Source of the DNA: Saccoglossus kowalevskii
Taxonomy: Eukaryota > Hemichordata > Enteropneusta > Harrimaniidae
NCBI RefSeq assembly: GCF_000003605.2
Contig: NW_003109669.1
Span: forward strand, 1-25,604
Direction of reading: 5' to 3'
DNA: 25,604 bases
Made by a program: the position numbers and the translations under genes. Each line of letters begins with the position of its first letter. The stretch's first letter is position 1. This document shows, piece after piece, positions 679 to 25,604 of this stretch. The notes beneath the pieces were generated by a model. The model had not been told where the DNA came from. It worked only from the letters and a program-made list of their open reading frames with translations, and did no database searches.

Positions 679-1049
679 AGTCTGAATGTAATGTACAATT
701 TAAGAAATTCTCATCAATTACAGTTAAAACGACCAAGGACTAAACGCTATGGACTGGAGTCATTGTCTTATTATGGTGCTAAAATGTGGAACTCGCTTCC
801 TAATCGAATGAAGGAGTGCAAAGATTTGTATTCGTTTAAGCAAATGGTGTCATTGTGGTCACCATCATTTTAAGATATTTAATTGATTATTTGTGAAATC
901 TTACTGTTGTTTTTCTCTGTGTTTGATGTTTGATGTTTGTAATTTTTGCTTTTGTTTGATGTAATTTTTAGTAGCCAGTGATATTAGTCTTTGGCTAGGT
1001 ATTTCAAACTGACTTTAAATAAACCAATTGAATTGAATTGAATTGAATT
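679..1049 (+). mobile_element. 5'-truncated LINE 3' end, copy 1
   Basis: Non-satellite insert of about 371 bp. It holds the last 60 codons of a LINE reverse-transcriptase ORF (691-873), an AT-rich 3' UTR with a short TTTGATG tandem duplication near 922-935, an AATAAA at 1018-1023, and a terminal (AATTG)n tract at 1026-1049. Truncation at the 5' end and a simple-repeat tail are the usual result of target-primed reverse transcription by CR1/L2-type elements. The left junction falls after GTCGAACTAA and the right junction before TTATGCAGTCG, so the insert sits within one 29-bp half-monomer. The exact left edge is uncertain by a few bases. The tail motif GAATT is also present in the satellite target, so the right edge is ambiguous too. 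Confidence 0.88.
691..873 (+). pseudogene. LINE reverse transcriptase C-terminal remnant, copy 1
   Basis: Sixty codons from ATG to TAA with no internal stop. Visible motifs are YNLRN at residues 2-6, PRT..YG at 15-21, SLSYYGAKMWNSLP at 24-37 and SFKQM at 48-52. The order RT-YG-S-SY-GAK-WN-LP followed by a charged stretch and a FK motif is characteristic of the C-terminal tail, beyond the polymerase core, of CR1/L2/Crack/Daphne-type LINE ORF2 proteins. The catalytic palm (FADD box) and the endonuclease domain are absent, so the product cannot be active. The ATG is not a real start. The frame stays open upstream into the satellite until a TAG at 643-645. Confidence 0.85.
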
Positions 1050-1947
1050 ATTATGCAGTCGTCACAGAATTCACGTATCACAGTCGCATTAACTCAGAAT
1101 TACGTTATGCAGTCGTCACAGAATTCATGTATCACAGTCGCATTAACTCAGAATTACGTTATGTAGTCGGCACAGAAATTCATGTATCACAGTCGCATTA
1201 ACTCAGAATTACGTTATGTAGTCGTCACAGAATTTACGTATCACAGTCGCATTAACTCAGAATTACGTTATGCAGTCGTCACAGAATTCACGTATCACAG
1301 TCGCATTAACTCAGAATTATGTTATGCAGTCGTCACAGAATTCACGTGTTTCAGTCGCATTAACTCAGAATTATGTTATGCAGTCGTCACAGAATTCACG
1401 TGCTTCAGTCGCATTAACTCAGAATTACGTTATGCAGTCGTCACAGAATTCACGTGTTTCAGTCGCATTAACTCAGAATTATGTTATGCAGTCGTCACAG
1501 AATTCACGTGCTTCAGTCGCATTAACTCAGAATTACGTTATGCAGTCGTCACAGAATTCACGTGTTTCAGTCGCATTAACTCAGAATTATGTTAAGCAGT
1601 CGTCACAGAATTCACGTGCTTCAGTCGCATTAACTCAGAATTACGTTATGCAGTCGTCGCAGAATTCACGTGTTTCAGTCGCATTAACTCAGAATTATGT
1701 TATGCAGTCGTCACAGAATTCACGTGCTTCAGTCATATTAACTCAGAATTACGTTATGCAGTCGTCACAGAATTCACGTGTTTCAGTCGCATTAACTCAA
1801 AATTATGTTATGCAGTCGTCACAGAATTCATGTGCTTCAGTCGCATTAACTCAGAATTACGTTATGTAGTCGTCACAGAATTCACGTTTTTCAGTCGCAT
1901 TAACTCAGAATTATGTTATGCAGTCGTCACAGAATTCACGTGCTTCA

Positions 1948-2275
1948 GTCGAACTAACTCAGAATTACGTTATGTAGTCGTCACAGAATTCACGTGTTTC
2001 AGTCGAACTAACTCAGAATTACGTTATGCAGTCGTCACAGAATGCACGTGCTTCAGTCGAACTAACTCAGAATTACGTTATGTAGTCAGTCGTAACAGAA
2101 TTCACGTGCTTCAGTCGAACTAACTCGGAATTACGTTATGTAGTCAGTAGTAACAGAATTCACGTGCTTCAGTGGAACTAACACAGAATTACGTTATGTA
2201 GTCATCACATAATTCACGTGCCTCAGTCGCATTAACTCAGAACTATGTTATGTAGTCGACACAGAATTCATGTGT
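1948..2275 (+). repeat. GAACTA block, variant end
   Basis: First copy of the GAACTA module. GTCGCATTA is replaced by GTCGAACTA in successive monomers, followed by two 58-bp monomers in which AGTC is duplicated (AGTCAGTCGTAACAG, then AGTCAGTAGTAACAG). A CATCACATAATTC and GTGCCTCAG monomer then leads to AACTATG. Unlike the other full copies it ends in ATGTGTTTCAGTCGC rather than the GTCGCTGTCGC tag, and reads GTCGACAC just before. Confidence 0.85.
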
Positions 2276-2765
2276 TTCAGTCGCATTAACTCAGAATTAT
2301 GTTATGCAGTCGTCACAGAATTCACGTGCTTCAGTCGCATTAACTCAGAATTACGTTATGCAGTCGTCACAGAATTCACGTGTTTCAGTCGCATTAACTC
2401 AGAATTATGTTATGCAGTCGTCACAGAATTCACGTGCTTCAGTCGCATTAACTCAGAATTACGTTATGCAGTCGTCACAGAATTCACGTGTTTCAGTCGC
2501 ATTAACTCAGAATTATGTTAAGCAGTCGTCACAGAATTCACGTGCTTCAGTCGCATTAACTCAGAATTACGTTATGCAGTCGTCACAGAATTCACGTGTT
2601 TCAGTCGCATTAACTCAGAATTATGTTATGCAGTCGTCACAGAATTCACGTGCTTCAGTCATATTAACTCAGAATTACGTTATGTAGTCGTCACAGAATT
2701 CACGTTTTTCAGTCGCATTAACTCAGAATTATGTTATGCAGTCGTCACAGAATTCACGTGCTTCA

Positions 2766-3102
2766 GTCGAACTAACTCAGAATTACGTTATGTAGTCGTC
2801 ACAGAATTCACGTGTTTCAGTCGAACTAACTCAGAATTACGTTATGCAGTCGTCACAGAATGCACGTGCTTCAGTCGAACTAACTCAGAAATACGTTATG
2901 TAGTCAGTCGTAACAGAATTCACGTGCTTCAGTCGAACTAACTCGGAATTACGTTATGTAGTCAGTAGTAACAGAATTCACGTGCTTCAGTGGAACTAAC
3001 ACAGAATTACGTTATGTAGTCATCACATAATTCACGTGCCTCAGTCGCATTAACTCAGAACTATGTTATGTAGTCGTCACAGAATTCATGTGTCGCTGTC
3101 GC
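2766..3102 (+). repeat. 337-bp GAACTA module
   Basis: Complete copy of the recurrent 337-bp module, running from the first GTCGAACTA to the tag ATGTGTCGCTGTCGC. It holds three GAACTA monomers, the two 4-bp-expanded monomers, the TGGAACTAACACAG monomer, the CATCACATAATTC monomer and the tag. It carries a private T-to-A change giving CAGAAATACG near 2887. Confidence 0.9.
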
Positions 3103-3808
3103 ATTAACTCAGAATTATGTTATGCAGTCGTCACAGAATTCACGTGCTTCAGTCGCATTAACTCAGAATTACGTTATGCAGTCGTCACAGAATTCACGTG
3201 TTTCAGTTGCATTAACTCAGAATTATGTTATGCAGTCGTCACAGAATTCACGTGCTTCAGTCGCATTAACTCAGAATTACGTTATGCAGTCGTCACAGAA
3301 TTCACGTGTTTCAGTCGCATTAACTAAGAATTATGTTATGCAGTCGTCACAGAATTCACGTACTTCAGTCGCATTAACTCAGAATTACGTTATGTAGTCG
3401 TCACAGAATTCACGTTTTTCAGTCGCATTAACTCAGAATTATGTTATGCAGTCGTCACAGAATTCACGTGCTTCAGTCGAACTAACTCAGAATTACGTTA
3501 TGTAGTCGTCACAGAATTCACGTGCTTCAGTCGCATTAACTCAGAATTACGTTATGCAGTCGTCACAGAATTCACGTGTTTCAGTCGCATTAACTCAGAA
3601 TTATGTTATGCAGTCGTCACAGAATTCATGTATCACAGTCGCATTAACTCAGAATTACGTTATGTAGTCGGCACAGAATTCATGTATCACAGTCGCATTA
3701 ACTCAGAATTATGTTATGTAGACGTCACAGAATTCATGTGCTTCAGTCGAACTAACTAAGAATTACGTTATATAGTCGTCACAGAATTCACGTGTCACAG
3801 TCGAACTA

Positions 3809-4179
3809 AGTCTGAATGTAATGTACAATTTAAGAAATTCTCATCAATTACAGTTAAAACGACCAAGGACTAAACGCTATGGACTGGAGTCATTGTCTTA
3901 TTATGGTGCTAAAATGTGGAACTCGCTTCCTAATCGAATGAAGGAGTGCAAAGATTTGTATTCGTTTAAGCAAATGGTGTCATTGTGGTCACCATCATTT
4001 TAAGATATTTAATTGATTATTTGTGAAATCTTACTGTTGTTTTTCTCTGTGTTTGATGTTTGATGTTTGTAATTTTTGCTTTTGTTTGATGTAATTTTTA
4101 GTAGCCAGTGATATTAGTCTTTGGCTAGGTATTTCAAACTGACTTTAAATAAACCAATTGAATTGAATTGAATTGAATT
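3809..4179 (+). mobile_element. 5'-truncated LINE 3' end, copy 2
   Basis: I could find no difference from copy 1 over the 371 bp, and it sits exactly 3130 bp downstream of it. AATAAA lies at 4148-4153 and the (AATTG)n tail at 4156-4179. The left flank differs from copy 1: it carries the TAGACGTCAC and ACTAACTAAG variants shared with later copies. The right flank is the same GTATCAC-class block. Identical junctions argue for co-amplification with the satellite, not a second insertion. Confidence 0.88.
3821..4003 (+). pseudogene. LINE reverse transcriptase C-terminal remnant, copy 2
   Basis: Same 60-codon remnant as copy 1 with an identical translation, ending in TAA. It lacks the catalytic domains. 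The first in-frame ATG is an accident of the truncation. Confidence 0.85.
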
Positions 4180-4968
4180 ATTATGCAGTCGTCACAGAAT
4201 TCACGTATCACAGTCGCATTAACTCAGAATTACGTTATGCAGTCGTCACAGAATTCATGTATCACAGTCGCATTAACTCAGAATTACGTTATGTAGTCGG
4301 CACAGAATTCATGTATCACAGTCGCATTAACTCAGAATTACGTTATGTAGTCGTCACAGAATTTACGTATCACAGTCGCATTAACTCAGAATTACGTTAT
4401 GCAGTCGTCACAGAATTCACGTATCACAGTCGCATTAACTCAGAATTATGTTATGCAGTCGTCACAGAATTCACGTGTTTCAGTCGCATTAACTCAGAAT
4501 TATGTTATGCAGTCGTCACAGAATTCACGTGCTTCAGTCGCATTAACTCAGAATTACGTTATGCAGTCGTCACAGAATTCACGTGTTTCAGTCGCATTAA
4601 CTCAGAATTATGTTATGCAGTCGTCACAGAATTCACGTGCTTCAGTCGCATTAACTCAGAATTACGTTATGCAGTCGTCACAGAACTTACGTGTTTCAGT
4701 CGCATTAACTCATAATTATGTTATGCAGTCGTCACAGAATTCACGTGCTTCAGTCATATTAACTCAGAATTACGTTATGCAGTCGTCACAGAATTCACGT
4801 GTTTCAGTCGCATTAACTCAGAATTATGTTATGCAGTCGTCACAGAATTCATGTGCTTCAGTCGCATTAACTCAGAATTACGTTATGTAGTCGTCACAGA
4901 ATTCACGTTTTTCAGTCGCATTAACTCAGAATTATGTTATGCAGTCGTCACAGAATTCACGTCCTTCA

Positions 4969-5305
4969 GTCGAACTAACTCAGAATTACGTTATGTAGTC
5001 GTCACAGAATTCACGTGTTTCAGTCGAACTAACTCAGAATTACGTTATGCAGTCGTCACAGAATGCACGTGCTTCAGTCGAACTAACTCAGAATTACGTT
5101 ATGTAGTCAGTCGTAACAGAATTCACGTGCTTCAGTCGAACTAACTCGGAATTACGTTATGTAGTCAGTAGTAACAGAATTCACGTGCTTCAGTGGAACT
5201 AACACAGAATTACGTTATGAAGTCATCACATAATTCACGTGCCTCAGTCGCATTAACTCAGAACTATGTTATGTAGTCGTCAGAGAATTCATGTGTCGCT
5301 GTCGC
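4969..5305 (+). repeat. 337-bp GAACTA module
   Basis: Full-length copy. Private or subgroup variants are GTCCTTCAG just before it, ATGAAGTCATC instead of ATGTAGTCATC near 5218, and GTCAGAGAATTC near 5279. The same set recurs at 24822-25158, and partly at 18434-18771 and 19145-19481, which links those regions. Confidence 0.9.
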
Positions 5306-5678
5306 ATTAACTCAGAATTATGTTATGCAGTCGTCACAGAATTCACGTGCTTCAGTCGCATTAACTCAGAATTACGTTATGCAGTCGTCACAGAATTCAC
5401 GTGTTTCAGTCGCATTAACTCAGAATTATGTTATGCAGTCGTCACAGAATTCACGTGCTTTAGTCGCATTAACTCAGAATTACGTTATGCAGTCGTCACA
5501 TAATTCACGTGTTTCAGTCGCATTAACTCAGAATTATGTTATGCAGTCGTCACAGAATTCATGTGCTTCAGTCGCATTAACTCAGAATTACGTTATGTAG
5601 TCGTCACAGAATTCACGTTTTTCAGTCGCATTAACTCAGAATTATGTTATGCGGTCGTCACAGAATTCACGTGCTTCA

Positions 5679-5898
5679 GTCGAACTAACTCAGATTACGT
5701 TATGTAGTCGTCACAGAATTCACGTGTTTCAGTCGAACTAACTCAGAATTACGTTATGCAGTCGTCACAGAATGCACGTGCTTCAGTCGAACTAACTCGG
5801 AATTACGTTATGTAGTCATCACATAATTCACGTGCCTCAGTCGCATTAACTCAGAACTATGTTATGTAGTCGTCACAGAATTCATGTGTCGCTGTCGC
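5679..5898 (+). repeat. GAACTA module shortened by two 58-bp monomers
   Basis: 220 bp from the first GTCGAACTA to the tag. Both 4-bp-expanded monomers (2 x 58 = 116 bp) are missing, and one A is lost near 5691, which accounts for the full 117-bp difference from 337. Confidence 0.82.
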
Positions 5899-6300
5899 AT
5901 TAGCTCAGAATTATGTTATGCAGTCGTCACAGAATTCACGTGCTTCAGTCGCATTAACTCAGAATTACGTTATGCAGTCGTCACAGAATTCACGTGTTTC
6001 AGTCGCATTAACTCAGAATTATGTTATGCAGTCGTCACAGAATTCACGTGCTTTAGTCGCATTAACTCAGAATTACGTTATGCAGTCCTCACAGAATTCA
6101 CGTGTTTCAGTCGCATTAACTCAGAATTATGTTATGCAGTCGTCACAGAATTCACGTGCTTCAGTCGCATTAACTCAGAATTACGTTATGCAGTCGACAC
6201 AGAATTCACGTGTTTCAGTCGCATTAACTCAGAATTATGTTATGCAGTCGTCACAGAATTCACGTGCTTCAGTCGCATTAACTTAGAATTACGTTATGCA

Positions 6301-6350
6301 GTCGTCACAGAATTCACGTGTTTCAGTCGTCACAGAATTCACGTGCTTCA
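6301..6350 (+). repeat. Half-monomer deletion (two 25-bp half-units in tandem)
   Basis: Two 25-bp A-halves (GTCGTCACAGAATTCACGT plus GTTTCA or GCTTCA) follow each other directly, with the 29-bp B-half missing between them. This shifts the array phase by 25 bp. The same junction, in the same local context, occurs at 12082, 14545, 16260, 16555 and 23160. Confidence 0.9.
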
Positions 6351-7592
6351 GTCGCATTAACTCAGAATTACGTTATGTAGTCGTCACAGAATTCACGTTT
6401 TTCAGTCGCATTAACTCAGAATTATGTTATGCAGTCGTCACAGAATTCACGTGCTTCAGTCGCATTAACTCAGAATTACGTTATGCAGTCGTCACAGAAT
6501 TCACGTGCTTCAGTCGCATTAACTCAGAATTACGTTATGCAGTCGTCACAGAATTCACGTGTTTCAGTCGCATTAACTCAGAATTACGTTATGCAGTCGT
6601 CACAGAATTCACGTGTTTCAGTCGCATTAACTCAGAATTATGTTATGCAGTCGTCACAGAATTCACGTGCTTCAGTCGCATTAACTCAGAATTACGTTAT
6701 GCAGTCGTCACAGAATTCACGTGTTTCAGTCGCATTAACTCAGAATTATGTTATGCAGTCGTCACAGAATTCACGTGCTTCAGTCGCATTAACTCAGAAT
6801 TACGTTATGCAGTCGTCACAGAATTCACGTGATTCAGTCGCATTAACTCAGAATTATGTTAAGCAGTCGTCACAGAATTCACGTGTTTCAGTCGCATTAA
6901 CTCAGAATTATGTTATGCAGTCGTCACAGAATTCACGTGTTTCAGTCGCATTAACTCAGAATTATGTTATGCAGTCGTCACAGAATTCACGTGCTTCAGT
7001 CATATTAACTCAGAATTACGTTATGCAGTCGTCACAGAATGCACGTGTTTCAGTCGCATTAACTCAAAACTATGTTATGCAGTCGTCACAGAATTCATGT
7101 GCTTCAGTCGCATTAACTCAGAATTACGTTATGCAGTCGTCACAGAATTCACGTGTTTCAGTCGCATTAACTCAGAATTATGTTATGCAGTCGTCACAGA
7201 ATTCACGTGCTTCAGTCGCATTAACTCAGAATTACGTTATGCAGTCGTCACAGAATTCACGTGTTTCAGTCGCATTAACTCAGAATTATGTTAAGCAGTC
7301 GTCACAGAATTCACGTGCTTCAGTCGCATTAACTCAGAATTACGTTATGCAGTCGTCACAGAATTCACGTGTTTCAGTCGCATTAACTCAGAATTATGTT
7401 ATGCAGTCGTCACAGAATTCACGTGCTTCAGTCATATTAACTCAGAATTACGTTATGCAGTCGTCACAGAATTCACGTGTTTCAGTCGCATTAACTCAGA
7501 ATTATGTTATGCAGTCGTCGCAGAATTCATGTGCTTCAGTCGCATTAACTCAGAATTACGTTATGTAGTCGTCACAGAATTCACGTGTTTCA

Positions 7593-7875
7593 GTCGAACT
7601 AACTCAGAATTACGTTATGCAGTCGTCACAGAATGCACGTGCTTCAGTCGAACTAACTCAGAATTACGTTATGTAGTCAGTCGTAACAGAATTCACGTGC
7701 TTCAGTCGAACTAACTCGGAATTACGTTATGTAGTCAGTAATAACAGAATTCACGTGCTTCAGTGGAACTAACACAGAATTACGTTATGTAGTCATCACA
7801 TAATTCACGTGCCTCAGTCGCATTAACTCAGAACTATGTTATGTAGTCGTCACAGAATTCATGTGTCGCTGTCGC
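7593..7875 (+). repeat. GAACTA module, one monomer shorter
   Basis: 283 bp, exactly 54 bp shorter than the full module. It also has the AGTCAGTAATAAC variant (G to A), shared with about 9752 and 21919. Confidence 0.85.
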
Positions 7876-8990
7876 ATTAACTCAGAATTATGTTATGCAG
7901 TCGTCACAGAATTCACGTGCTTCAGTCGCATTAACTCAGAATTACGTTATGCAGTCGTCACAGAATTCATGTATCACAGTCGCATTAACTCAGAATTACG
8001 TTATGTAGTCGTCACAGAATTTACGTATCACAGTCGCATTAACTCAGAATTACGTTATGCAGTCGTCACAGAATTCACGTATCACAGTCGCATTAACTCA
8101 GAATTATGTTATGCAGTCGTCACAGAATTCACGTGTTTCAGTCGCATTAACTCAGAATTATGTTATGCAGTCGTCACAGAATTCACGTTCTTCAGTCGCA
8201 TTAACTCAGAATTACGTTATGCAGTCGTCACAGAATTCACGTGTTTCCGTCGCATTAACTCAGAATTATGTTATGCAGTCGTCACAGAATTCACGTGCTT
8301 CAGTCGCATTAACTCAGAATTACGTTATGCAGTCGTCACAGAATTCACGTGTTTCAGTCGCATTAACTCAGAATTATGTTAAGCAGTCGTCACAGAATTC
8401 ACGTGCTTCAGTCGCATTAACTCAGAATTACGTTATGCAGTCGTCACAGAATTCACGTGTTTCAGTCGCATTAACTCAGAATTATGTTATGCAGTCGTCA
8501 CAGAATTCACGTGCTTCAGTCATATTAACTCAGAATTACGTTATGCAGTCGTCACAGAATTCACGTGTTTCAGTCGCATTAACTCAAAATTATGTTATGC
8601 AGTCGTCACAGAATTCATGTGCTTCAGTCGCATTAACTCAGAATTACGTTATGTAGTCGTCACAGAATTCACGTTTTTCAGTCGCATTAACTCAGAATTA
8701 TGTTATGCAGTCGTCACAGAATTCACGTGCTTCAGTCGAACTAACTCAGAATTACGTTATGTAGTCGTCACAGAATTCACGTGTTTCAGTCGAACTAACT
8801 CAGAATTACGTTATGCAGTCGTCACAGAATGCACGTGCTTCAGTCGAACTAACTCAGAATTACGTTATGTAGTCAGTCGTAACAGAATTCACGTGCTTCA
8901 GTCGAACTAACTCGGAATTACGTTATGTAGTCAGTAGTAACAGAATTCACGTGCTTCAGTGGAACTAACACAGAATTACGTCATGTAGTC
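7672..8990 (+). repeat. Long duplication arm (2014-bp offset), left
   Basis: Matches 9686-11004 at a constant 2014-bp offset (37 x 54 + 16). Shared markers are AGTAATAACAG, the internal GTATCAC monomers, GTTCTTCAG, ACTCAAAATTATG and the TACGTCATG variant near 8979/10993. A related copy lies at about 21,850-22,780, with an offset of 14,180 changing to 14,234 after one extra 54-bp monomer. Confidence 0.82.
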
Positions 8991-9017
8991 GTCACAGAAT
9001 TCACGTGTCGCTGTCGC
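8735..9017 (+). repeat. GAACTA module with deleted ACATAATTC monomer
   Basis: 283 bp. The CATCACATAATTC/AACTATG monomer is missing, so the TGGAACTAACACAG monomer joins directly to ACGTGTCGCTGTCGC. This is the only copy of the tag that keeps CACGTG instead of CATGTG. Confidence 0.82.
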
Positions 9018-9685
9018 ATTAACTCAGAATTATGTTATGCAGTCGTCACAGAATTCACGTGCTTCAGTCGCATTAACTCAGAATTACGTTATGCAGTCGT
9101 CACAGAATTCACGTGTTTCAGTCGCATTAACTCAGAATTATGTTATGCAGTCGTCACAGAATTCACGTGCTTCAGTCGCATTAACTCAGAATTACGTTAT
9201 GCAGTCGTCACAGAATTCACGTGTTTCAGTCGCATTAACTCAGAATTATGTTATGCAGTCGTCACAGAATTCACGTGCTTTAGTCGCATTAACTCAGAAT
9301 TACGTTATGCAGTCCTCACAGAATTCACGTGTTTCAGTCGCATTAACTCAGAATTATGTTATGCAGTCCTCACAGAATTCACGTGTTTCAGTCGCATTAA
9401 CTCAGAATTATGTTATGCAGTCGTCACAGAATTCACGTGCTTCAGTCGCATTAACTCAGAATTACGTTATGCAGTCGACACAGAATTCACGTGTTTCAGT
9501 CGCATTAACTCAGAATTATGTTATGCAGTCGTCACAGAATTCACGTGCTTCAGTCGCATTAACTCAGAATTATGTTATGTAGTCGTCACAGAATTCACGT
9601 TTTTCAGTCGCATTAACTCAGAATTATGTTATGCAGTCGTCACAGAATTCACGTGCTTCAGTCGCATTAACTCAGAATTATGTTA

Positions 9686-11004
9686 TGTAGTCAGTCGTAA
9701 CAGAATTCACGTGCTTCAGTCGAACTAACTCGGAATTACGTTATGTAGTCAGTAATAACAGAATTCACGTGCTTCAGTGGAACTAACACAGAATTACGTT
9801 ATGTAGTCATCACATAATTCACGTGCCTCAGTCGCATTAACTCAGAACTATGTTATGTAGTCGTCACAGAATTCATGTGTCGCTGTCGCATTAACTCAGA
9901 ATTATGTTATGCAGTCGTCACAGAATTCACGTGCTTCAGTCGCATTAACTCAGAATTACGTTATGCAGTCGTCACAGAATTCATGTATCACAGTCGCATT
10001 AACTCAGAATTACGTTATGTAGTCGTCACAGAATTTACGTATCACAGTCGCATTAACTCAGAATTACGTTATGCAGTCGTCACAGAATTCACGTATCACA
10101 GTCGCATTAACTCAGAATTATGTTATGCAGTCGTCACAGAATTCACGTGTTTCAGTCGCATTAACTCAGAATTATGTTATGCAGTCGTCACAGAATTCAC
10201 GTTCTTCAGTCGCATTAACTCAGAATTACGTTATGCAGTCGTCACAGAATTCACGTGTTTCAGTCGCATTAACTCAGAATTATGTTATGCAGTCGTCACA
10301 GAATTCACGTGCTTCAGTCGCATTAACTCAGAATTACGTTATGTAGTCGTCACAGAATTCACGTGTTTCAGTCGCATTAACTCAGAATTATGTTAAGCAG
10401 TCGTCACAGAATTCACGTGCTTCAGTCGCATTAACTTAGAATTACGTTATGCAGTCGTCACAGAATTCACGTGTTTCAGTCGCATTAACTCAGAATTATG
10501 TTATGCAGTCGTCACAGAATTCACGTGCTTCAGTCATATTAACTCAGAATTACGTTATGCAGTCGTCACAGAATTCACGTGTTTCAGTCGCATTAACTCA
10601 AAATTATGTTATGCAGTCGTCACAGAATTCATGTGCTTCAGTCGCATTAACTCAGAATTACGTTATGTAGTCGTCACAGAATTCACGTTTTTCAGTCGCA
10701 TTAACTCAGAATTATGTTATGCAGTCGTCACAGAATTCACGTGCTTCAGTCGAACTAACTCAGAATTACGTTATGTAGTCGTCACAGAATTCACGTGTTT
10801 CAGTCGAACTAACTCAGAATTACGTTATGCAGTCGTCACAGAATGCACGTGCTTCAGTCGAACTAACTCAGAATTACGTTATGTAGTCAGTCGTAACAGA
10901 ATTCACGTGCTTCAGTCGAACTAACTCGGAATTACGTTATGTAGTCAGTAGTAACAGAATTCACGTGCTTCAGTGGAACTAACACAGAATTACGTCATGT
11001 AGTC
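9686..11004 (+). repeat. Long duplication arm (2014-bp offset), right
   Basis: Second arm of the 2014-bp-offset pair with 7672-8990. Differences from the left arm include TATGTAGTCG near 10339 and TTAACTTAG near 10431, both of which break the otherwise open frame. Confidence 0.82.
9719..9889 (+). repeat. GAACTA module, 5' part missing
   Basis: 171 bp. Begins in the monomer after the first 4-bp expansion, then has AGTAATAAC, TGGAACTAACACAG, CATCACATAATTC and the GTCGCTGTCGC tag. The leading GAACTA monomers are replaced by ordinary GCATTA monomers. Confidence 0.8.
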
Positions 11005-11085
11005 ATCACATAATTCACGTGCCTCAGTCGCATTAACTCAGAACTATGTTATGTAGTCGTCACAGAATTCATGTGTCGCTGTCGC
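10749..11085 (+). repeat. 337-bp GAACTA module
   Basis: Full-length copy with the TACGTCATG variant near 10993, otherwise canonical. Confidence 0.9.
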
Positions 11086-11458
11086 ATTAACTCAGAATTA
11101 TGTTATGCAGTCGTCACAGAATTCACGTGCTTCAGTCGCATTAACTCAGAATTACGTTATGCAGTCGTCACAGAATTCACGTGTTTCAGTCGCATTAACT
11201 CAGAATTATGTTATGCAGTCGTCACAGAATTCACGTGCTTCAGTCGCATTAACTCAGAATTACGTTATGCAGTCGTCACAGAATTCACGTGTTTCAGTCG
11301 CATTAACTAAGAATTATGTTATGCAGTCGTCACAGAATTCACGTACTTCAGTCGCATTAACTCAGAATTACGTTATGTAGTCGTCACAGAATTCACGTTT
11401 TTCAGTCGCATTAACTCAGAATTATGTTATGCAGTCGTCACAGAATTCACGTGCTTCA

Positions 11459-14594: not shown

Positions 14595-14867
14595 GTCGCA
14601 TTAACTCAGAATTACGTTATGTAGTCGTCACAGAATTCACGTTTTTCAGTCGCATTAACTCAGAATTATGTTATGCAGTCGTCACAGAATTCACGTGCTT
14701 CAGTCGCATTAACTCAGAATTATGTTATGTAGTCAGTCGTAACAGAATTCACGTGCTTCAGTCGAACTAACTCGGAATTACGTTATGTAGTCAGTAGTAA
14801 CAGAATTCACGTGCTTCAGTGGAACTAACACAGAATTACGTTATGTAGTCATCACATAATTCACGTG

Positions 14868-15120: not shown

Positions 15121-15578
15121 AGTCATCACATAATTCACGTGCCTCAGTCGCATTAACTCAGAACTATGTTATGTAGTCGTCACAGAATTCATGTGTCGCT
15201 GTCGCATTAACTCAGAATTATGTTATGCAGTCGTCACAGAATTCACGTGCTTCAGTCGCATTAACTCAGAATTACGTTATGCAGTCGTCACAGAATTCAC
15301 GTGTTTCAGTCGCATTAACTCAGAATTATGTTATGCAGGCGTCACAGAATTCACGTGCTTCAGTCGCATTAACTCAGAATTACGTTATGCAGTCGTCACA
15401 GAATTCACGTGTTTCAGTCACATTAACTAAGAATTATGTTATGCAGTCGTCACAGAATTCACGTACTTCAGTCGCATTAACTCAGAATTACGTTATGTAG
15501 TCGTCACAGAATTCACGTTTTTCAGTCGCATTAACTCAGAATTATGTTATGCAGTCGTCACAGAATTCACGTGCTTCA

Positions 15579-15857
15579 GTCGAACTAACTCAGAATTACG
15601 TTATGTAGTCGTCACAGAATTCACGTGTTTCAGTCGAACTAACTCAGAATTACGTTATGCAGTCGTCACAGAATGCACGTGCTTCAGTCGAACTAACTCA
15701 GAATTACGTTATGTAGTCAGTCGTAACAGAATTCGCGTGCTTCAGTCGAACTAACTCGGAATTACGTTATGTAGTCATCACATAATTCACGTGCCTCAGT
15801 CGCATTAACTCAGAACTATGTTATGTAGTCGTCACAGAATTCATGTGTCGCTGTCGC
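15579..15857 (+). repeat. GAACTA module shortened by one 58-bp monomer
   Basis: 279 bp copy. Private variant: GAATTCGCGTGC near 15,731, where CACGTG has become CGCGTG. Confidence 0.84.
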
Positions 15858-16040
15858 ATTAACTCAGAATTATGTTATGCAGTCGTCACAGAATTCACGT
15901 GCTTCAGTCGCATTAACTCAGAATTACGTTATGCAGTCGTCACAGAATTCACGTGTTTCAGTCGCATTAACTCAGAATTATGTTATGCAGTCGTCACAGA
16001 ATTCACGCGCTTTAGTCGCATTAACTCAGAATTACGTTAT

Positions 16041-16335
16041 GCAGTCCTCACAGAATTCACGTGTTTCAGTCGCATTAACTCAGAATTATGTTATGCAGTC
16101 GTCACAGAATTCACGTGCTTCAGTCGCATTAACTCAGAATTACGTTATGCAGTCGACACAGAATTCACGTGTTTCAGTCGCATTAACTCAGAATTATGTT
16201 ATGCAGTCGTCACAGAATACACGTGCTTCAGTCGCATTAACTCAGAATTACGTTATGCAGTCGTCACAGAATTCACGTGTTTCAGTCGTCACAGAATTCA
16301 CGTGCTTCAGTCGCATTAACTCAGAATTACCTTAT
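16041..16335 (+). repeat. 295-bp tandem duplication, first unit
   Basis: Runs from GCAGTCCTCAC through GCAGTCGACAC, AATACACGTGC and the half-monomer deletion at 16260-16309. Length 295 = 5 x 54 + 25, so the half-unit is part of the duplicated segment. Confidence 0.88.
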
Positions 16336-16630
16336 GCAGTCCTCACAGAATTCACGTGTTTCAGTCGCATTAACTCAGAATTATGTTATGCAGTCGTCAC
16401 AGAATTCACGTGCTTCAGTCGCATTAACTCAGAATTACGTTATGCAGTCGACACAGAATTCACGTGTTTCAGTCGCATTAACTCAGAATTATGTTATGCA
16501 GTCGTCACAGAATACACGTGCTTCAGTCGCATTAACTCAGAATTACGTTATGCAGTCGTCACAGAATTCACGTGTTTCAGTCGTCACAGAATTCACGTGC
16601 TTCAGTCGCATTAACTCAGAATTACGTTAT
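16336..16630 (+). repeat. 295-bp tandem duplication, second unit
   Basis: Direct repeat of 16041-16335, including the private AATACACGTGC variant and the half-monomer deletion at 16555-16604. The duplication junction carries TTACCTTATG instead of TTACGTTATG at about 16,327-16,336. Confidence 0.88.
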
Positions 16631-17165
16631 GTAGTCGTCACAGAATTCACGTTTTTCAGTCGCATTAACTCAGAATTATGTTATGCAGTCGTCACAGAAT
16701 TCACGTGCTTCAGTCGCATTAACTCAGAATTATGTTATGTAGTCAGTCGTAACAGAATTCACGTGCTTCAGTCGAACTAACTCGGAATTACGTTATGTAG
16801 TCAGTAGTAACAGAATTCACGTGCTTCAGTGGAACTAACACAGAATTACGTTATGTAGTCATCACATAATTCACGTGCTTCAGTCGCATTAACTCAGAAT
16901 TACGTTATGCAGTCGTCACAGAATTCACGTGTTTCAGTCGCATTAACTAAGAATTATGTTATGCAGTCGTCACAGAATTCACGTGCTCCAGTCGCATTAA
17001 CTCAGAATTACGTTAATATGTAATCGTCACAGAATTCACGTGCTTCAGTCGCATTTGACTCAGAATTATGTTATGTAGACGTCACAGAATTCATGTGCTT
17101 CAGTCGAACTAACTAAGAATTACGTTATATAGTCGTCACAGAATTCACGTGTCACAGTCGAACTA

Positions 17166-17536
17166 AGTCTGAATGTAATGTACAATTTAAGAAATTCTCA
17201 TCAATTACAGTTAAAACGACCAAGGACTAAACGCTATGGACTGGAGTCATTGTCTTATTATGGTGCTAAAATGTGGAACTCGCTTCCTAATCGAATGAAG
17301 GAGTGCAAAGATTTGTATTCGTTTAAGCAAATGGTGTCATTGTGGTCACCATCATTTTAAGATATTTAATTGATTATTTGTGAAATCTTACTGTTGTTTT
17401 TCTCTGTGTTTGATGTTTGATGTTTGTAATTTTTGCTTTTGTTTGATGTAATTTTTAGTAGCCAGTGATATTAGCCTTTGGCTAGGTATTTCAAACTGAC
17501 TTTAAATAAACCAATTGAATTGAATTGAATTGAATT
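17166..17536 (+). mobile_element. 5'-truncated LINE 3' end, copy 3
   Basis: 371-bp insert with the same two junctions as copies 1 and 2. It differs by ATTAGCCTTTG instead of ATTAGTCTTTG in the 3' UTR, a change shared only with copy 4. AATAAA is at 17505-17510 and the (AATTG)n tail at 17513-17536. The left flank has the GTTAATATG (with TAATCG) and GCATTTGACTC variants. Confidence 0.88.
17178..17360 (+). pseudogene. LINE reverse transcriptase C-terminal remnant, copy 3
   Basis: Sixty-codon remnant with the same translation as copies 1 and 2. Only the post-polymerase C-terminal tail is present. Confidence 0.85.
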
Positions 17537-18433
17537 ATTATGCAGTCGTCACAGAATTCACGTATCACAGTCGCATTAACTCAGAATTACGTTATGCAGT
17601 CGTCACAGAATTCATGTATCACAGTCGCATTAACTCAGAATTACGTTATGTAGTCGGCACAGAATTCATGTATCACAGTCGCATTAACTCAGAATTACGT
17701 TATGTAGTCGTCACAGAATTTACGTATCACAGTCGCATTAACTCAGAATTACGTTATGCAGTCGTCACAGAATTCACGTATCACAGTCGCATTAACTCAG
17801 AATTATGTTATGCAGTCGTCACAGAATTCACGTGTTTCAGTCGCATTAACTCGGAATTATGTTATGCAGTCGTCACAGAATTCACGTGCTTCAGTCGCAT
17901 TAACTCAGAATTACGTTATGCAGTCGTCACAGAATTCACGTGTTTCAGTCGCATTAACTCAGAATTATGTTATGCAGTCGTCACAGAATTCACGTGCTTC
18001 AGTCGCATTAACTCAGAATTACGTTATGCAGTCGTCACAGAATTCACGTGTTTCAGTCGCATTAACTCAGAATTATGTTAAGCAGTCGTCACAGAATTCA
18101 CGTGCTTCAGTCGCATTAACTCAGAATTACGTTATGCAGTCGTCACAGAACTTACGTGTTTCAGTCGCATTAACTCAGAATTATGTTATGCAGTCGTCAC
18201 AGAATTCACGTGCTTCAGTCATATTAACTCAGAATTACGTTATGCAGTCGTCACAGAATTCACGTGTTTCAGTCGCATTAACTCAGAATTATGTTATGCA
18301 GTCGTCACAGAATTCATGTGCTTCAGTCGCATTAACTCAGAATTACGTTATGTAGTCGTCACAGAATTCACGTTTTTCAGTCGCATTAACTCAGAATTAT
18401 GTTATGCAGTCGTCACAGAATTCACGTGCTTCA

Positions 18434-18771
18434 GTCGAACTAACTCAGAATTACGTTATGTAGTCGTCACAGAATTCACGTGTTTCAGTCGAACTAACTC
18501 AGAATTACGTTATGCAGTCGTCACAGAATGCACGTGCTTCAGTCGAACTAACTCAGAATTACGTTATGTAGTCAGTCGTCATAGAATTCACGTGCTTCAG
18601 TCGAACTAACTCGGAATTACGTTATGTAGTCAGTAGTAACAGAATTCACGTGCTTCAGTGGAACTAACACAGAATTACGTTATGAAGTCATCACATAATT
18701 CACGTGCCTCAGTCGCATTAACTCAGAACTATGTTATTGTAGTCGTCAGAGAATTCATGTGTCGCTGTCGC
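18434..18771 (+). repeat. GAACTA module, 338 bp
   Basis: Full module with one inserted T (TATGTTATTGTAG near 18,737) and GTCGTCATAGAATTC instead of GTCGTAACAG near 18,576. It also has the ATGAAGTCATC and GTCAGAGAATTC subgroup variants. Confidence 0.88.
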
Positions 18772-19144
18772 ATTAACTCAGAATTATGTTATGCAGTCGT
18801 CACAGAATTCACGTGCTTCAGTCGCATTAACTCAGAATTACGTTATGCAGTCGTCACAGAATTCACGTGTTTCAGTCGCATTAACTCAGAATTATGTTAT
18901 GCAGTCGTCACAGAATTCACGTGCTTTAGTCGCATTAACTCAGAATTACGTTATGCAGTCGTCACATAATTCACGTGTTTCAGTCGCATTAACTCAGAAT
19001 TATGTTATGCAGTCGTCACAGAATTCATGTGCTTCAGTCGCATTAACTCAGAATTACGTTATGTAGTCGTCACAGAATTCACGTTTTTCAGTCGCATTAA
19101 CTCAGAATTTTGTTATGCGGTCGTCACAGAATTCACGTGCTTCA

Positions 19145-19481
19145 GTCGAACTAACTCAGAATTACGTTATGTAGTCGTCACAGAATTCACGTGTTTCAGT
19201 CGAACTAACTCAGAATTACGTTATGCAGTCGTCACAGAATGCACGTGCTTCAGTCGAACTAACTCAGAATTACGTTATGTAGTCAGTCGTAACAGAATTC
19301 ACGTGCTTCAGTCGAACTAACTCGGAATTACGTTATGTAGTCAGTAGTAACAGAATTCACGTGCTTCAGTGGAACTAACACAGAATTACGTTATGAAGTC
19401 ATCACATAATTCACGTGCCTCAGTCGCATTAACTCAGAACTATGTTATGTAGTCGTCAGAGAATTCATGTGTCGCTGTCGC
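19145..19481 (+). repeat. 337-bp GAACTA module
   Basis: Full-length copy 711 bp after the previous one, preceded by GAATTTTGTTATGCGG variants. It carries the ATGAAGTCATC and GTCAGAGAATTC subgroup markers. Confidence 0.9.
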
Positions 19482-20025
19482 ATTAACTCAGAATTATGTT
19501 ATGCAGTCGTCACAGAATTCACGTGCTTCAGTCGCATTAACTCAGAATTACGTTATGTAGTCGTCACAGAATTCACGTGTTTCAGTCGCATTAACTCAGA
19601 ATTATGTTATGCAGTCGTCACAGAATTCACGTGCTTTAGTCGCATTAACTCAGAATTACGTTATGCAGTCGTCACATAATTCACGTGTTTCAGTCGCATT
19701 AACTCAGAATTATGTTATGCAGTCGTCACAGAATTCACGTGCTTCAGTCGCATTAACTCAGAATTACGTTATGCAGTCGTCACAGAATTCACGTGTTTCA
19801 GTCGCATTAACTAAGAATTATGTTATGCAGTCGTCACAGAATTCACGTGCTCCAGTCGCATTAACTCAGAATTACGTTAATATGTAGTCGTCACAGAATT
19901 CACGTGCTTCAGTCGCATTTGACTCAGAATTATGTTATGTAGACGTCACAGAATTCATGTGCTTCAGTCGAACTAAGAATTACGTTATATAGTCGTCACA
20001 GAATTCACGTGTCACAGTCGAACTA

Positions 20026-20389
20026 AGTCTGAATGTAATGTACAATTTAAGAAATTCTCATCAATTACAGTTAAAACGACCAAGGACTGAACGCTATGGA
20101 CTGGAGTCATTGTCTTATTATGGTGCTAAAATGTGGAACTCGCTTCCTAATCGAATGAAGGAGTGCAAAGATTTGTATTCGTTTAAGCAAATGGTGTCAT
20201 TGTGGTCACCATCATTTTAAGATATTTAATTGATTATTTGTGAAATCTTACTGTTGTTTTTCTCTGTGTTTGATGTTTGTAATTTTTGCTTTTGTTTGAT
20301 GTAATTTTTAGTAGCCAGTGATATTAGCCTTTGGCTAGGTATTTCAAACTGACTTTAAATAAACCAATTGAATTGAATTGAATTGAATT
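20026..20389 (+). mobile_element. 5'-truncated LINE 3' end, copy 4
   Basis: 364 bp. It lacks one 7-bp unit of the TTTGATG duplication in the 3' UTR (near 20,268-20,280) and shares ATTAGCCTTTG with copy 3. AATAAA is at 20358-20363 and the (AATTG)n tail at 20366-20389. Junctions are the same as in the other copies. Confidence 0.88.
20038..20220 (+). pseudogene. LINE reverse transcriptase C-terminal remnant, copy 4
   Basis: Sixty codons. The only amino-acid change among the five copies is here: ACTGAACGC makes residue 18 Glu instead of Lys. Confidence 0.85.
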
Positions 20390-21718
20390 ATTATGCAGTC
20401 GTCACAGAATTCACGTATCACAGTCGCATTAACTCAGAATTACGTTATGCAGTCGTCACAGAATTCATGTATCACAGTCGCATTAACTCAGAATTACGTT
20501 ATGTAGTCGTCACAGAATTCATGTATCACAGTCGCATTAACTCAGAATTACGTTATGTAGTCGTCACAGAATTTACGTATCACAGTCGCATTAACTCAGA
20601 ATTACGTTATGCAGTCGTCACAGAATTCACGTATCACAGTCGCATTAACTCAGAATTATGTTATGCAGTCGTCACAGAATTCACGTGTTTCAGTCGCATT
20701 AACTCAGAATTATGTTATGCAGTCGTCACAGAATTCACGTGCTTCAGTCGCATTAACTCAGAATTACGTTATGCAGTCGTCACAGAATTCACGTGTTTCA
20801 GTCGCATTAACTCAGAATTATGTTATGCAGTCGTCACAGAATTCACGTGCTTCAGTCGCATTAACTCAGAATTACGTTATGCAGTCGTCACAGAATTCAC
20901 GTGTTTCAGTCGCATTAACTCAGAATTATGTTAAGCAGTCGTCACAGAATTCACGTGTTTCAGTCGCATTAACTCAGAATTATGTTATGCAGTCGTCACA
21001 GAATTCACGTGTTTCAGTCGCATTAACTCAGAATTATGTTATGCAGTCGTCACAGAATTCACGTGCTTCAGTCATATTAACTCAGAATTACGTTATGCAG
21101 TCGTCACAGAATTCACGTGTTTCAGTCGCATTAACTCAAAACTATGTTATGCAGTCGTCACAGAATTCATGTGCTTCAGTCGCATTAACTCAGAATTACG
21201 TTATGCAGTCGTCACAGAATTCACGTGTTTCAGTCGCATTAACTCAGAATTATGTTATGCAGTCGTCACAGAATTCACGTGCTTCAGTCGCATTAACTCA
21301 GAATTACGTTATGCAGTCGTCACAGAATTCACGTGTTTCAGTCGCATTAACTCAGAATTATGTTAAGCAGTCGTCACAGAATTCACGTGCTTCAGTCGCA
21401 TTAACTCAGAATTACGTTATGCAGTCGTCACAGAATTCACGTGTTTCAGTCGCATTAACTCAGAATTATGTTATGCAGTCGTCACAGAATTCACGTGCTT
21501 CAGTCATATTAACTCAGAATTACGTTATGCAGTCGTCACAGAATTCACGTGTTTCAGTCGCATTAACTCAGAATTATGTTATGCAGTCGTCACAGAATTC
21601 ATGTGCTTCAGTCGCATTAACTCAGAATTACGTTATGTAGTCGTCACAGAATTCACGTTTTTCAGTCGCATTAACTCAGAATTATGTTATGCAGTCGTCA
21701 CAGAATTCACGTGCTTCA

Positions 21719-22055
21719 GTCGAACTAATTCAGAATTACGTTATGTAGTCGTCACAGAATTCACGTGTTTCAGTCGAACTAACTCAGAATTACGTTATGC
21801 AGTCGTCACAGAATGCACGTGCTTCAGTCGAACTAATTCAGAATTACGTTATGTAGTCAGTCGTAACAGAATTCACGTGCTTCAGTCGAACTAACTCGGA
21901 ATTATGTTATGTAGTCAGTAATAACAGAATTCACGTGCTTCAGTGGAACTAACACAGAATTACGTTATGTAGTCATCACATAATTCACGTGCCTCAGTCG
22001 CATTAACTCAGAACTATGTTATGTAGTCGTCACAGAATTCATGTGTCGCTGTCGC
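21719..22055 (+). repeat. 337-bp GAACTA module
   Basis: Full-length copy with AACTAATTCAG (C to T) in two monomers (about 21,723 and 21,833) and the AGTCAGTAATAAC variant shared with 7,736 and 9,750. Confidence 0.9.
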
Positions 22056-23159
22056 ATTAACTCAGAATTATGTTATGCAGTCGTCACAGAATTCACGTGC
22101 TTCAGTCGCATTAACTCAGAATTACGTTATGCAGTCGTCACAGAATTCATGTATCACAGTCGCATTAACTCAGAATTACGTTATGTAGTCGTCACAGAAT
22201 TCATGTATCACAGTCGCATTAACTCAGAATTACGTTATGTAGTCGTCACAGAATTTACGTATCACAGTCGCATTAACTCAGAATTACGTTATGCAGTCGT
22301 CACAGAATTCACGTATCACAGTCGCATTAACTCAGAATTATGTTATGCAGTCGTCACAGAAATCACGTGTTTCAGTCGCATTAACTCAGAATTATGTTAT
22401 GCAGTCGTCACAGAATTCACGTTCTTCAGTCGCATTAACTCAGAATTACGTTATGCAGTCGTCACAGAATTCACGTGTTTCAGTCGCATTAACTCAGAAT
22501 TATGTTATGCAGTCGTCACAGAATTCACGTGCTTCAGTCGCATTAACTCAGAATTACGTTATGCAGTCGTCACAGAATTCACGTGTTTCAGTCGCATTAA
22601 CTCAGAATTATGTTAAGCAGTCGTCACAGAATTCACGTGCTTCAGTCGCATTAACTCAGAATTACGTTATGCAGTCGTCACAGAATTCACGTGTTTCAGT
22701 CGCATTAACTCAGAATTATGTTATGCAGTCGTCACAGAATTCACGTGCTTCAGTCATATTAACTCAGAATTACGTTATGTAGTCGTCACAGAATTCATGT
22801 ATCACAGTCGCATTAACTCAGAATTACGTTATGTAGTCGTCACAGAATTTACGTATCACAGTCGCATTAACTCACAATTACGTTATGCAGTCGTCACAGA
22901 ATTCACGTATCACAGTCGCATTAACTCAGAATTATGTTATGCAGTCGTCACAGAATTCACGTGTTTCAGTCGCATTAACTCAGAATTATGTTATGCAGTC
23001 GTCACAGAATTCACGTTCTTCAGTCGCATTAACTCAGAATTACGTTATGCAGTCGACACAGAATTCACGTGTTTCAGTCGCATTAACTCAGAATTATGTT
23101 ATGCAGTCGTCACAGAATTCACGTGCTTCAGTCGCATTAACTCAGAATTACGTTATGCA

Positions 23160-23209
23160 GTCGTCACAGAATTCACGTGTTTCAGTCGTCACAGAATTCA
23201 CGTGCTTCA
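23160..23209 (+). repeat. Half-monomer deletion
   Basis: Two A-halves in tandem, same context as at 16555, exactly 6605 bp away. That is also the distance between LINE copies 3 and 5. Confidence 0.9.
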
Positions 23210-23770
23210 GTCGCATTAACTCAGAATTACGTTATGTAGTCGTCACAGAATTCACGTTTTTCAGTCGCATTAACTCAGAATTATGTTATGCAGTCGTCAC
23301 AGAATTCACGTGCTTCAGTCGCATTAACTCAGAATTATGTTATGTAGTCAGTCGTAACAGAATTCACGTGCTTCAGTCGAACTAACTCGGAATTACGTTA
23401 TGTAGTCAGTAGTAACAGAATTCACGTGCTTCAGTGGAACTAACACAGAATTACGTTATGTAGTCATCACATAATTCACGTGCTTCAGTCGCATTAACTC
23501 AGAATTACGTTATGCAGTCGTCACAGAATTCACGTGTTTCAGTCGCATTAACTAAGAATTATGTTATGCAGTCGTCACAGAATTCACGTGCTCCAGTCGC
23601 ATTAACTCGGAATTACGTTAATATGTAGTCGTCACAGAATTCACGTGCTTCAGTCGCATTTGACTCAGAATTATGTTATGTAGACGTCACAGAATTCATG
23701 TGCTTCAGTCGAACTAACTAAGAATTACGTTATATAGTCGTCACAGAATTCACGTGTCACAGTCGAACTA

Positions 23771-24140
23771 AGTCTGAATGTAATGTACAATTTAAGAAAT
23801 TCTCATCAATTACAGTTAAAACGACCAAGGACTAAACGCTATGGACTGGAGTCATTGTCTTATTATGGTGCTAAAATGTGGAACTCGCTTCCTAATCGAA
23901 TGAAGGAATGCAAAGATTTGTATTCGTTTAAGCAAATGGTGTCATTGTGGTCACCATCATTTTAAGATATTTAATTGATTATTTGTGAAATCTTACTGTT
24001 GTTTTCTCTGTGTTTGATGTTTGATGTTTGTAATTTTTGCTTTTGTTTGATGTAATTTTTAGTAGCCAGTGATATTAGTCTTTGGCTAGGTATTTCAAAC
24101 TGACTTTAAATAAACCAATTGAATTGAATTGAATTGAATT
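23771..24140 (+). mobile_element. 5'-truncated LINE 3' end, copy 5
   Basis: 370 bp. One T is lost from the T-run in GTTGTTTTCTCTG near 24,000, and ATTAGTCTTTG is as in copies 1 and 2. AATAAA is at 24109-24114 and the (AATTG)n tail at 24117-24140. The left flank belongs to the copy 3/4 type and the right flank to the copy 2 type, so the unit is mosaic. Confidence 0.88.
23783..23965 (+). pseudogene. LINE reverse transcriptase C-terminal remnant, copy 5
   Basis: Sixty codons, with a translation identical to copies 1-3. One synonymous change, GAG to GAA, at codon 42. Confidence 0.85.
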
Positions 24141-25594
24141 ATTATGCAGTCGTCACAGAATTCACGTATCACAGTCGCATTAACTCAGAATTACGTTATG
24201 CAGTCGTCACAGAATTCATGTATCACAGTCGCATTAACTCAGAATTACGTTATGTAGTCGGCACAGAATTCATGTATCACAGTCGCATTAACTCAGAATT
24301 ACGTTATGTAGTCGTCACAGAATTTACGTATCACAGTCGCATTAACTCAGAATTACGTTATGCAGTCGTCACAGAATTCACGTATCACAGTCGCATTAAC
24401 TCAGAATTATGTTATGCAGTCGTCACAGAATTCACGTGTTTCAGTCGCATTAACTCAGAATTATGTTATGCAGTCGTCACAGAATTCACGTGCTTCAGTC
24501 GCATTAACTCAGAATTACGTTATGCAGTCGTCACAGAATTCACGTGTTTCAGTCGCATTAACTCAGAATTATGTTATGCAGTCGTCACAGAATTCACGTG
24601 CTTCAGTCGCATTAACTCAGAATTACGTTATGCAGTCGTCACAGAACTTACGTGTTTCAGTCGCATTAACTCAGAATTATGTTATGCAGTCGTCACAGAA
24701 TTCACGTGCTTCAGTCATATTAACTCAGAATTACGTTATGCAGTCGTCACAGAATTCACGTTTTTCAGTCGCATTAACTCAGAATTATGTTATGCAGTCG
24801 TCACAGAATTCACGTCCTTCAGTCGAACTAACTCAGAATTACGTTATGTAGTCGTCACAGAATTCACGTGTTTCAGTCGAACTAACTCAGAATTACGTTA
24901 TGCAGTCGTCACAGAATGCACGTGCTTCAGTCGAACTAACTCAGAATTACGTTATGTAGTCAGTCGTAACAGAATTCACGTGCTTCAGTCGAACTAACTC
25001 GGAATTACGTTATGTAGTCAGTAGTAACAGAATTCACGTGCTTCAGTGGAACTAACACAGAATTACGTTATGAAGTCATCACATAATTCACGTGCCTCAG
25101 TCGCATTAACTCAGAACTATGTTATGTAGTCGTCAGAGAATTCATGTGTCGCTGTCGCATTAACTCAGAATTATGTTATGCAGTCGTCACAGAATTCACG
25201 TGCTTCAGTCGCATTAACTCAGAATTACGTTATGCAGTCGTCACAGAATTCACGTGTTTCAGTCGCATTAACTCAGAATTATGTTATGCAGTCGTCACAG
25301 AATTCACGTGCTTTAGTCGCATTAACTCAGAATTACGTTATGCAGTCGTCACATAATTCACGTGTTTCAGTCGCATTAACTCAGAATTATGTTATGCAGT
25401 CGTCACAGAATTCATGTATCACAGTCGCATTAACTCAGAATTACGTTATGTAGTCGGCACAGAATTCATGTATCACAGTCGCATTAACTCAGAATTATGT
25501 TATGTAGACGTCACAGAATTCATGTGCTTCAGTCGAACTAACTAAGAATTACGTTATATAGTCGTCACAGAATTCACGTGTCACAGTCGAACTA
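24141..25594 (+). repeat. 54-bp satellite array, last segment
   Basis: 1454 bp between LINE copies 5 and 6, the shortest complete LINE-to-LINE unit wholly visible (1824 bp including the LINE). Order: GTATCAC monomers (24,150-24,390), 108-bp dimers with GAACTTACG (about 24,645) and GTCATATTA, a full GAACTA module (24822-25158), a short dimer block, two GTATCAC monomers (about 25,411-25,490), then TAGACGTCAC (25,505-25,514) and the common pre-LINE monomer. It is close to 4180-5500, with a 108-bp deletion. Confidence 0.95.
24822..25158 (+). repeat. 337-bp GAACTA module
   Basis: Full-length copy in the last segment. Shares GTCCTTCAG, ATGAAGTCATC and GTCAGAGAATTC with 4969-5305. Confidence 0.9.
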
Positions 25595-25604
25595 AGTCTG
25601 AATG
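25595..25604 (+). mobile_element. Start of LINE copy 6 (cut by window end)
   Basis: The last ten bases, AGTCTGAATG, match the first ten of the other inserts. The preceding flank (GTTATATAG, GTGTCACAGTCGAACTA) is the invariant pre-LINE monomer. The rest lies outside the window. Confidence 0.75.

Follow-up and report, generated by a model that had tools for sequence, protein, structure and literature searches.

We analysed the whole of contig NW_003109669.1 from Saccoglossus kowalevskii (25,604 bp; called the window here, and C432 within the searched assembly of 572 Mb and 4830 contigs). The contig is filled by a tandem array of a 54-bp satellite, and within this array stand five complete copies, and the beginning of a sixth, of a short insert recognisable as the 3' end of a long interspersed nuclear element (LINE). 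The inserts have a single truncation point and one junction filler in common, are nearly identical to each other and lie in several distinct recombinant flanks. We consider it very likely that one 5'-truncated LINE copy was inserted into the satellite and was then co-amplified with the array. The features of the window are given below, where W1 to W6 denote its inserts; C1 to C4 are used for those of a second satellite contig, C987.

1..25604, + strand: 54-bp satellite array, filling the whole of C432
1..43, + strand: right flank of an insert probably lost off the contig start (last 43 nt, post-insert monomer type 23)
638..679, + strand: pre-insert monomer type 21, cut to 42 nt; identical at 3768, 17125, 19985, 23730 and 25554
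680..684, + strand: filler GTCTG at the junction, similar to satellite (two changes from CTCAG) and not LINE
685..1050, + strand: LINE-derived insert copy W1, 366 bp
685..870, + strand: final 62 codons of a reverse-transcriptase open reading frame (ORF), with the stop at 871-873
1018..1023, + strand: AATAAA, within GACTTTAAATAAA (1011-1023), which is also in the 3' untranslated region (UTR) of the L001 LINE described below
1026..1050, + strand: pentameric tail, four AATTG and one AATTA
1051..1104, + strand: post-insert monomer type 23, found exclusively after inserts; also at 4181, 17538, 20391 and 24142
3815..4180, + strand: insert copy W2, identical to W1
14949..15114, + strand: block akin to the pre-insert block but with no insert (types 35-68-69 followed by type 11)
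17172..17537, + strand: insert copy W3, with 309C and two GATGTTT units
20032..20390, + strand: insert copy W4, with 309C and a single GATGTTT unit, like most of the dispersed copies read
23777..24141, + strand: insert copy W5
25596..25604, + strand: sixth insert (W6), filler and first 4 LINE bases, ended by the contig end

The array of C432 was coded as 442 segments belonging to 89 monomer types, and monomers differ from each other by 8.6% on average (500 random pairs). Each 54-bp monomer consists of a 25-bp and a 29-bp half that have diverged from each other; their similarity score was reached in 1 of 2000 shuffles. A 24-bp tandem array (AGTCGTCACAGAATTAAGTGTTGT) on another contig (C3687:52359-52840, L064) is similar to half of the monomer. 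This resemblance lends weight to reading the 54-bp monomer as a diverged dimer, and the 24-bp array is a possible relative of its ancestor. The satellite word had no match in viral contigs, and this 54-bp satellite was not found in literature searches, in which papers were not searched by its sequence. The original prediction had called the arrangement a higher-order repeat. Multi-monomer blocks are indeed repeated, up to 1439 bp at 98.7% in the window and far more alike than single monomers are, but the term is a loose one, since the spacing is irregular and most blocks carry no insert. No regular period was found: inserts are spaced by 1824-13357 bp in the window and by 1166-6916 bp in C987. 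The composite unit thus varies in length, as had been claimed, with spacings of 1.2 to 13.4 kb overall. One block marker has 19 copies in the window against 6 insert starts, so inserts are present in a minority of units.

The inserts begin at 680, 3810, 17167, 20027 and 23772, with the sixth at 25596. The start-to-start spacings of 3130, 13357, 2860, 3745 and 1824 bp agree with the original prediction. All are on the + strand; a search for the insert start on the - strand of the window gave no match, and blastn with 7-base words and E up to 1 revealed no further insert pieces in the window beyond the five complete ones. Insert positions are numbered with the filler GTCTG as the first five, so that the LINE part begins at position 6 (685 in W1). 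The left junction GTCGAACTAAGTCTG is found at 670, 3800, 17157, 20017, 23762 and 25586, and the tail and 3' junction (GAATTA/TTATGCAG, the slash marking the join) are the same in all five complete window inserts. Monomer type 21 precedes the insert in each of the six window cases, and the closest other 42-mer differs from it at three bases. The first 475 bp of the window differ from all five right flanks by 0-1 substitutions, with two 1-base gaps relative to W1, and window position 1 lies 11 nt into a monomer otherwise seen only after inserts. Since position 1 is inside a post-insert monomer and the sixth insert starts at 25596, C432 appears to be bounded by inserts at both ends, and a further insert would probably lie just off its start.

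C987 (14,461 bp, whole contig read) contains four complete inserts with ends as in C432. A genome-wide search for the exact left junction gave 10 copies, six in C432 and four in C987, and none in any other contig; as a control, the reversed pattern gave 0 and 1. The junction is thus restricted to contigs of this satellite, as had been anticipated. The filler GTCTG is identical in 10/10 junctions, and the nine complete inserts have both ends and the tail in common, which bears out the common tail length that had been noted. As in a composite, LINE-bearing satellite of the chicken HinfI type, many units of the array hold a LINE fragment with the same ends (10 left junctions, nine complete inserts). 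The third C987 insert (L010/L011, reverse complement 6225-6588) alone reads AGTAAA for AATAAA.

The insert codes for 62 residues up to a stop, behind which come a 3' UTR containing AATAAA and a tail of AATTG repeats. The 63-residue peptide fragment used as query had no Pfam match, and a PDB search returned two matches at chance level (E 0.38 and 2.2); a piece this short went unrecognised in both databases. One degenerate motif scan of the genome contig collection found the contig L001 (NZ_CAHJWD020000243.1), in which a 1169-codon frame has PHD and RVT_1 domains. The insert peptide aligns without gaps to L001 residues 1098-1158, near the end of the reverse-transcriptase ORF, with 23/61 residues identical (E=5e-14). 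Because L001 had been found with the fragment's own residues, the similarity was retested outside the pattern stretch. There, 15/50 residues are identical, and the score was above all 100,000 shuffles. The 3' UTRs of insert and L001 also have GACTTTAAATAAA in common. The L001 frame stands in a contig filed under a bacterial assembly, that of a Bathymodiolus gill symbiont, and is probably host or other eukaryotic DNA left in it.

A copy in the own genome, L043, can be aligned with the L001 frame from residue 209 to residue 1158, in pieces that fall in three frames. L043 is frame-broken, and its separate open stretches give Exo_endo_phos (1.8e-7) and RVT_1 (3.5e-25), as in LINEs of the apurinic/apyrimidinic endonuclease (APE) type, where the endonuclease lies upstream in the reverse-transcriptase ORF. 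Its coding region is contiguous with the insert homology. Because L043 carries endonuclease, reverse transcriptase and insert homology, the insert is the 3' end (last 62 codons and 3' UTR) of an endonuclease-bearing LINE. The overall appearance of the ORF suggests that the parent clade may be CR1-like, within the jockey superfamily. Peptide and profile searches of the genome and viral contig collections confirmed no relative. A DNA search of phages gave nothing, protein searches in phages and plasmids gave chance matches only (E 3 to 8), and a motif scan of viral contigs slightly looser than the one that found L001 was empty. A short interspersed nuclear element or an RNA-headed element was among the readings considered and rejected; in window 600-4300 the gathering score was not attained by any Rfam family.

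Outside C432 and C987, the LINE body has at least 33 matches in 31 contigs, a lower bound with 40/43 candidates scored. Upstream sequence was read for 24 of the 33. The expectation that the parent LINE would be truncated elsewhere at other points held in every case, since 0/24 start at the satellite truncation point. Twenty extend upstream of it, the shortest by 8 bp and four (L021, L023, L024, L037) by at least 1489-1500 bp, a value bounded by the stretch read; the other four, L033, L039 and L040 among them, begin downstream, by 31, 82, 88 and 91 bp. Such variable 5' truncation of dispersed copies is again a feature of APE-type LINEs. The nine further matches start no earlier than insert position 153; two of them are second pieces of counted copies. 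Among the 21 best dispersed matches, 18 run on upstream; their match to the insert starts at position 6 (16 copies), 10 (one) or 26 (one), and in place of the insert's GTCTG and the satellite's CTCAG they show AGAAA or a similar word. Because the dispersed copies match from position 6 and are AGAAA-like before it, we regard GTCTG as non-LINE filler. The common truncation point of the original prediction stands, but the LINE begins at 685 and not at 679. Fourteen dispersed tails have at most three full AATTG units, versus four plus AATTA in the satellite insert. Together, the junction search and the starts of the dispersed copies support the predicted single insertion followed by array amplification.

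The nine complete inserts comprise seven distinct sequences, or four classes if single-copy differences, which are possible errors, are left out. Seven base differences and the 7-bp and 1-bp length differences fit one conflict-free tree by inspection. Counted by hand, two inserts differ on average by 2.0 substitutions over 364 bp; the count skips alignment columns 235-241, where MAFFT misplaced the 1-bp gap of W5 and with which the value is inflated to 3.33. Four mismatches given for W4 against W5 in a pairwise comparison have a similar origin. Satellite inserts are about 0.5% apart and 2-5% from the best-matching dispersed copies. Three bases are found in all nine inserts and in 0/21, 0/18 and 0/18 of the dispersed copies with a base there. 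In a maximum-likelihood tree of 28 rows, from which L038 and L041 were left out and in which 17/23 inner branches are weak, the nine inserts cluster together (support 85/86, and present in 87% of 200 bootstrap trees).

The differences that had been listed for the window are correct as text: T or C at 309, Lys-to-Glu in W4, a synonymous G-to-A in W5, and lengths reduced by 7 bp in W4 and 1 bp in W5. Of the claimed 7-bp deletion only the length difference stood. The direction was reversed, since 18/19 evaluable dispersed copies (21 read, by inspection) have one GATGTTT unit, and it is better described as a 7-bp duplication in the other copies. The shorter W4 is probably ancestral in length because of these dispersed copies; W4 and the four C987 inserts would keep the older length, and W1, W2, W3 and W5 carry the duplication. 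Position 309 is C in 15/17 dispersed copies (by inspection), and 309T (W1, W2, W5) probably arose later than the duplication. Two GATGTTT units are also present in L021, one of the best-matching dispersed copies (96.3%), which makes the direction likely but not certain.

We propose that a truncated LINE copy, comprising the last 62 codons, the 3' UTR and an AATTG tail, was inserted once at GAATT in the second half of a monomer. Target-primed reverse transcription, the usual route for LINEs, is assumed here. At the 5' join there is about 3 bp of homology, AAT, between satellite (CAGAAT/TACG) and LINE (AAT/GTAATG), in addition to the 5-base filler. On the 3' side the insert reads GAATTA/TTATGCAG, and uninterrupted satellite has GAATTACG or GAATTATG ahead of TTATGCAG. 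The insertion appears to have left no clear target-site duplication, with none beyond about 4 bp (an overlap of GAAT with the tail at the very most), and the loss of target bases would not have exceeded a few. Dispersed copies have only 6-7-base matches at inconsistent places, or none, in the 13 usable of 15 scanned; for L034 and L041, the unusable ones, the alignment end had been used and not the tail. Homology of the tail to the target is a weak argument, because GAATT occurs 819 times in the window. After its insertion, the fragment would have become a constituent of the array and would have been copied together with its nearest flanks, leading to at least 10 junctions in the two assembled pieces.

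How the copies spread was considered from the flanks. On the left, types 35-49-28-21 or near variants precede W3, W4, W5 and C4; 7-38-28-21 precedes W2 and W6; 5-8-21 precedes W1; and 49-n7, with monomer 21 missing, precedes C1, C2 and C3. The claim of identical junction monomers thus held for 6/6 window inserts and failed for 3/4 C987 inserts, and monomer 21 was dropped as an obligatory junction monomer. On the right, monomer 23 comes first in all, and C2 and C3 diverge after it. Monomer 38 resembles a cross of types 27 and 49; 28 and 21 seem to have been fused inside their shared CAGTCGAACTAA to give n7. This pattern agrees with unequal exchange between misaligned units, which we suggest as the main copying process; conversion or circles would also be compatible. 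It is possible, though we think it on the unlikely side, that the same single insertion owes its spread chiefly to gene conversion, or to rolling-circle amplification with reintegration, rather than to unequal crossing-over. The flanking stretch that the nine complete inserts share is short, at about 17 bp to their left and, to their right, one 54-bp monomer and the first part of its neighbour. The contexts beyond it differ, and short conversion tracts would give such a pattern. Against this, long near-identical blocks (the 1439-bp block, and a 2202-bp block shared at 99.0% by C987 and the window, insert included) fit tandem duplication. Sequence alone would not separate these copying routes.

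Blocks with and without the insert were also compared. Insert-linked right flanks differ at 0-2 of 432 bases (10 window pairs), and the insert-free block at 22127 differs from them at 2-4 of 432. The insert-free blocks at 7947 and 9961 differ at 1-3 of 378, with the monomer they lack removed. A flank divergence of 3.2% had been taken as support for the co-amplification and was dropped, because the alignment behind it had put two of the three insert-free blocks out of register. Exchange may have removed the insert from units that now appear as these insert-free blocks. Within the array the insert is the sole landmark that is not satellite, and flank contexts change close by on both sides while the insert stays intact. 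We mention only as an improbable idea that it serves as an alignment anchor or breakage point steering unequal exchange or conversion, with the array turning over around it.

Genome-wide, the 22-base satellite core occurs 404 times, with 262 copies in C432, 138 in C987 and four in C2859. C2859 holds an insert-free piece of the array, with a divergent block adjoining unique DNA, and enters N at 50687. The N stretch, which may be an assembly gap, continues to at least 74900 and was also found at 80000-80300 and 80301-84717, giving 34,031 bases if continuous (74901-79999 unread). Beyond it, C2859 84718-89999 has no satellite. C432 and C987 (40 kb together) may be unplaced pieces belonging at this array edge. 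At the same edge (L063, C2859:45000-54900, reverse complement about 5005-5889) a different insert is present once. By eye it resembles a LINE 3' fragment with 212 open codons and a tail of TTA repeats, flanked on either side by an apparent (A)TTAAC repeat, and looks like an unamplified contrast to the amplified LINE fragment.

Three of the four contig ends of C432 and C987 (window 1 and 25604; C987 14461) lie within 16 nt of an insert edge. Because they are so close, the assembler seems to have broken at inserts. This difficulty of the array, together with the long N that the C2859 piece enters, lends something to the view that one or two real inserts were duplicated by misassembly, but we hold this to be very improbable given seven distinct sequences among nine inserts, four classes without single-copy differences and four left-flank classes. 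Some LINEs are site-specific, and every insert ends at the same monomer phase; even so, independent insertions into equivalent monomers, whether of such a LINE or of a short non-autonomous element with fixed ends, are practically ruled out by the dispersed copies in 31 other contigs with varying tail lengths and different 5' ends in the 24 examined, by the filler and private bases that the satellite inserts have in common, and by the empty Rfam search of window 600-4300.

Several points weigh against one insertion with co-amplification. The upstream sequence read covers 24/33 non-satellite matches, and the scoring covers 40/43 candidates. No empty site matching the junction exactly was found, and the number and order of the copies depend on the assembly of a tandem array. 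The amplified unit was not fixed, because the right flank of C2 and C3 differs and C1-C3 are without the usual left monomer. The flanks lend little extra support, because insert-free blocks are nearly as alike as insert-linked ones, and the grouping of the nine inserts in the tree has moderate support.

Comparable systems have been described. In the chicken HinfI repeat, Li and Leung (2006, Genome 49:97) reportedly found a CR1 fragment in every repeat unit. Unlike this, the insert here is an occasional, irregular member of a 54-bp array (6 insert starts versus 19 block markers). The bovine satellite of Streeck (1982) is said to have received a foreign insert that was then co-amplified, with an insert type and regularity that differ from those here. 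The HinfI repeat (SCR1) is described as a tandem repeat with an embedded CR1 fragment (PMC9659126, PMC8392823), and like our case it has a LINE 3' UTR and partial reverse-transcriptase ORF as part of the repeat (PMC9659126). The common cetacean satellite (Kapitonov 1998), as outlined in the same source, has a monomer resembling the L1 3' end and thus also places a LINE 3' end within satellite DNA (PMC9659126). Unlike in that satellite, the 54-bp monomer here is separate from the LINE fragment. Composite satellite monomers recycle remnants of transposable elements into tandem repeats, as here, although those described in PMC12628747 contain several short pieces each and here one identifiable fragment lies in a pre-existing satellite.

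Chicken HinfI/CR1 is the closest precedent in the literature searched, and the present case is a further example with an irregular arrangement. The process is already known in kind and is not new. In summary, the array is a small and clear case: the insertion join, the family of the parent LINE, the probable order in which later changes arose and several recombinant flanks are all legible, and the insert is a tag for tracing how a satellite array grows and is rearranged.

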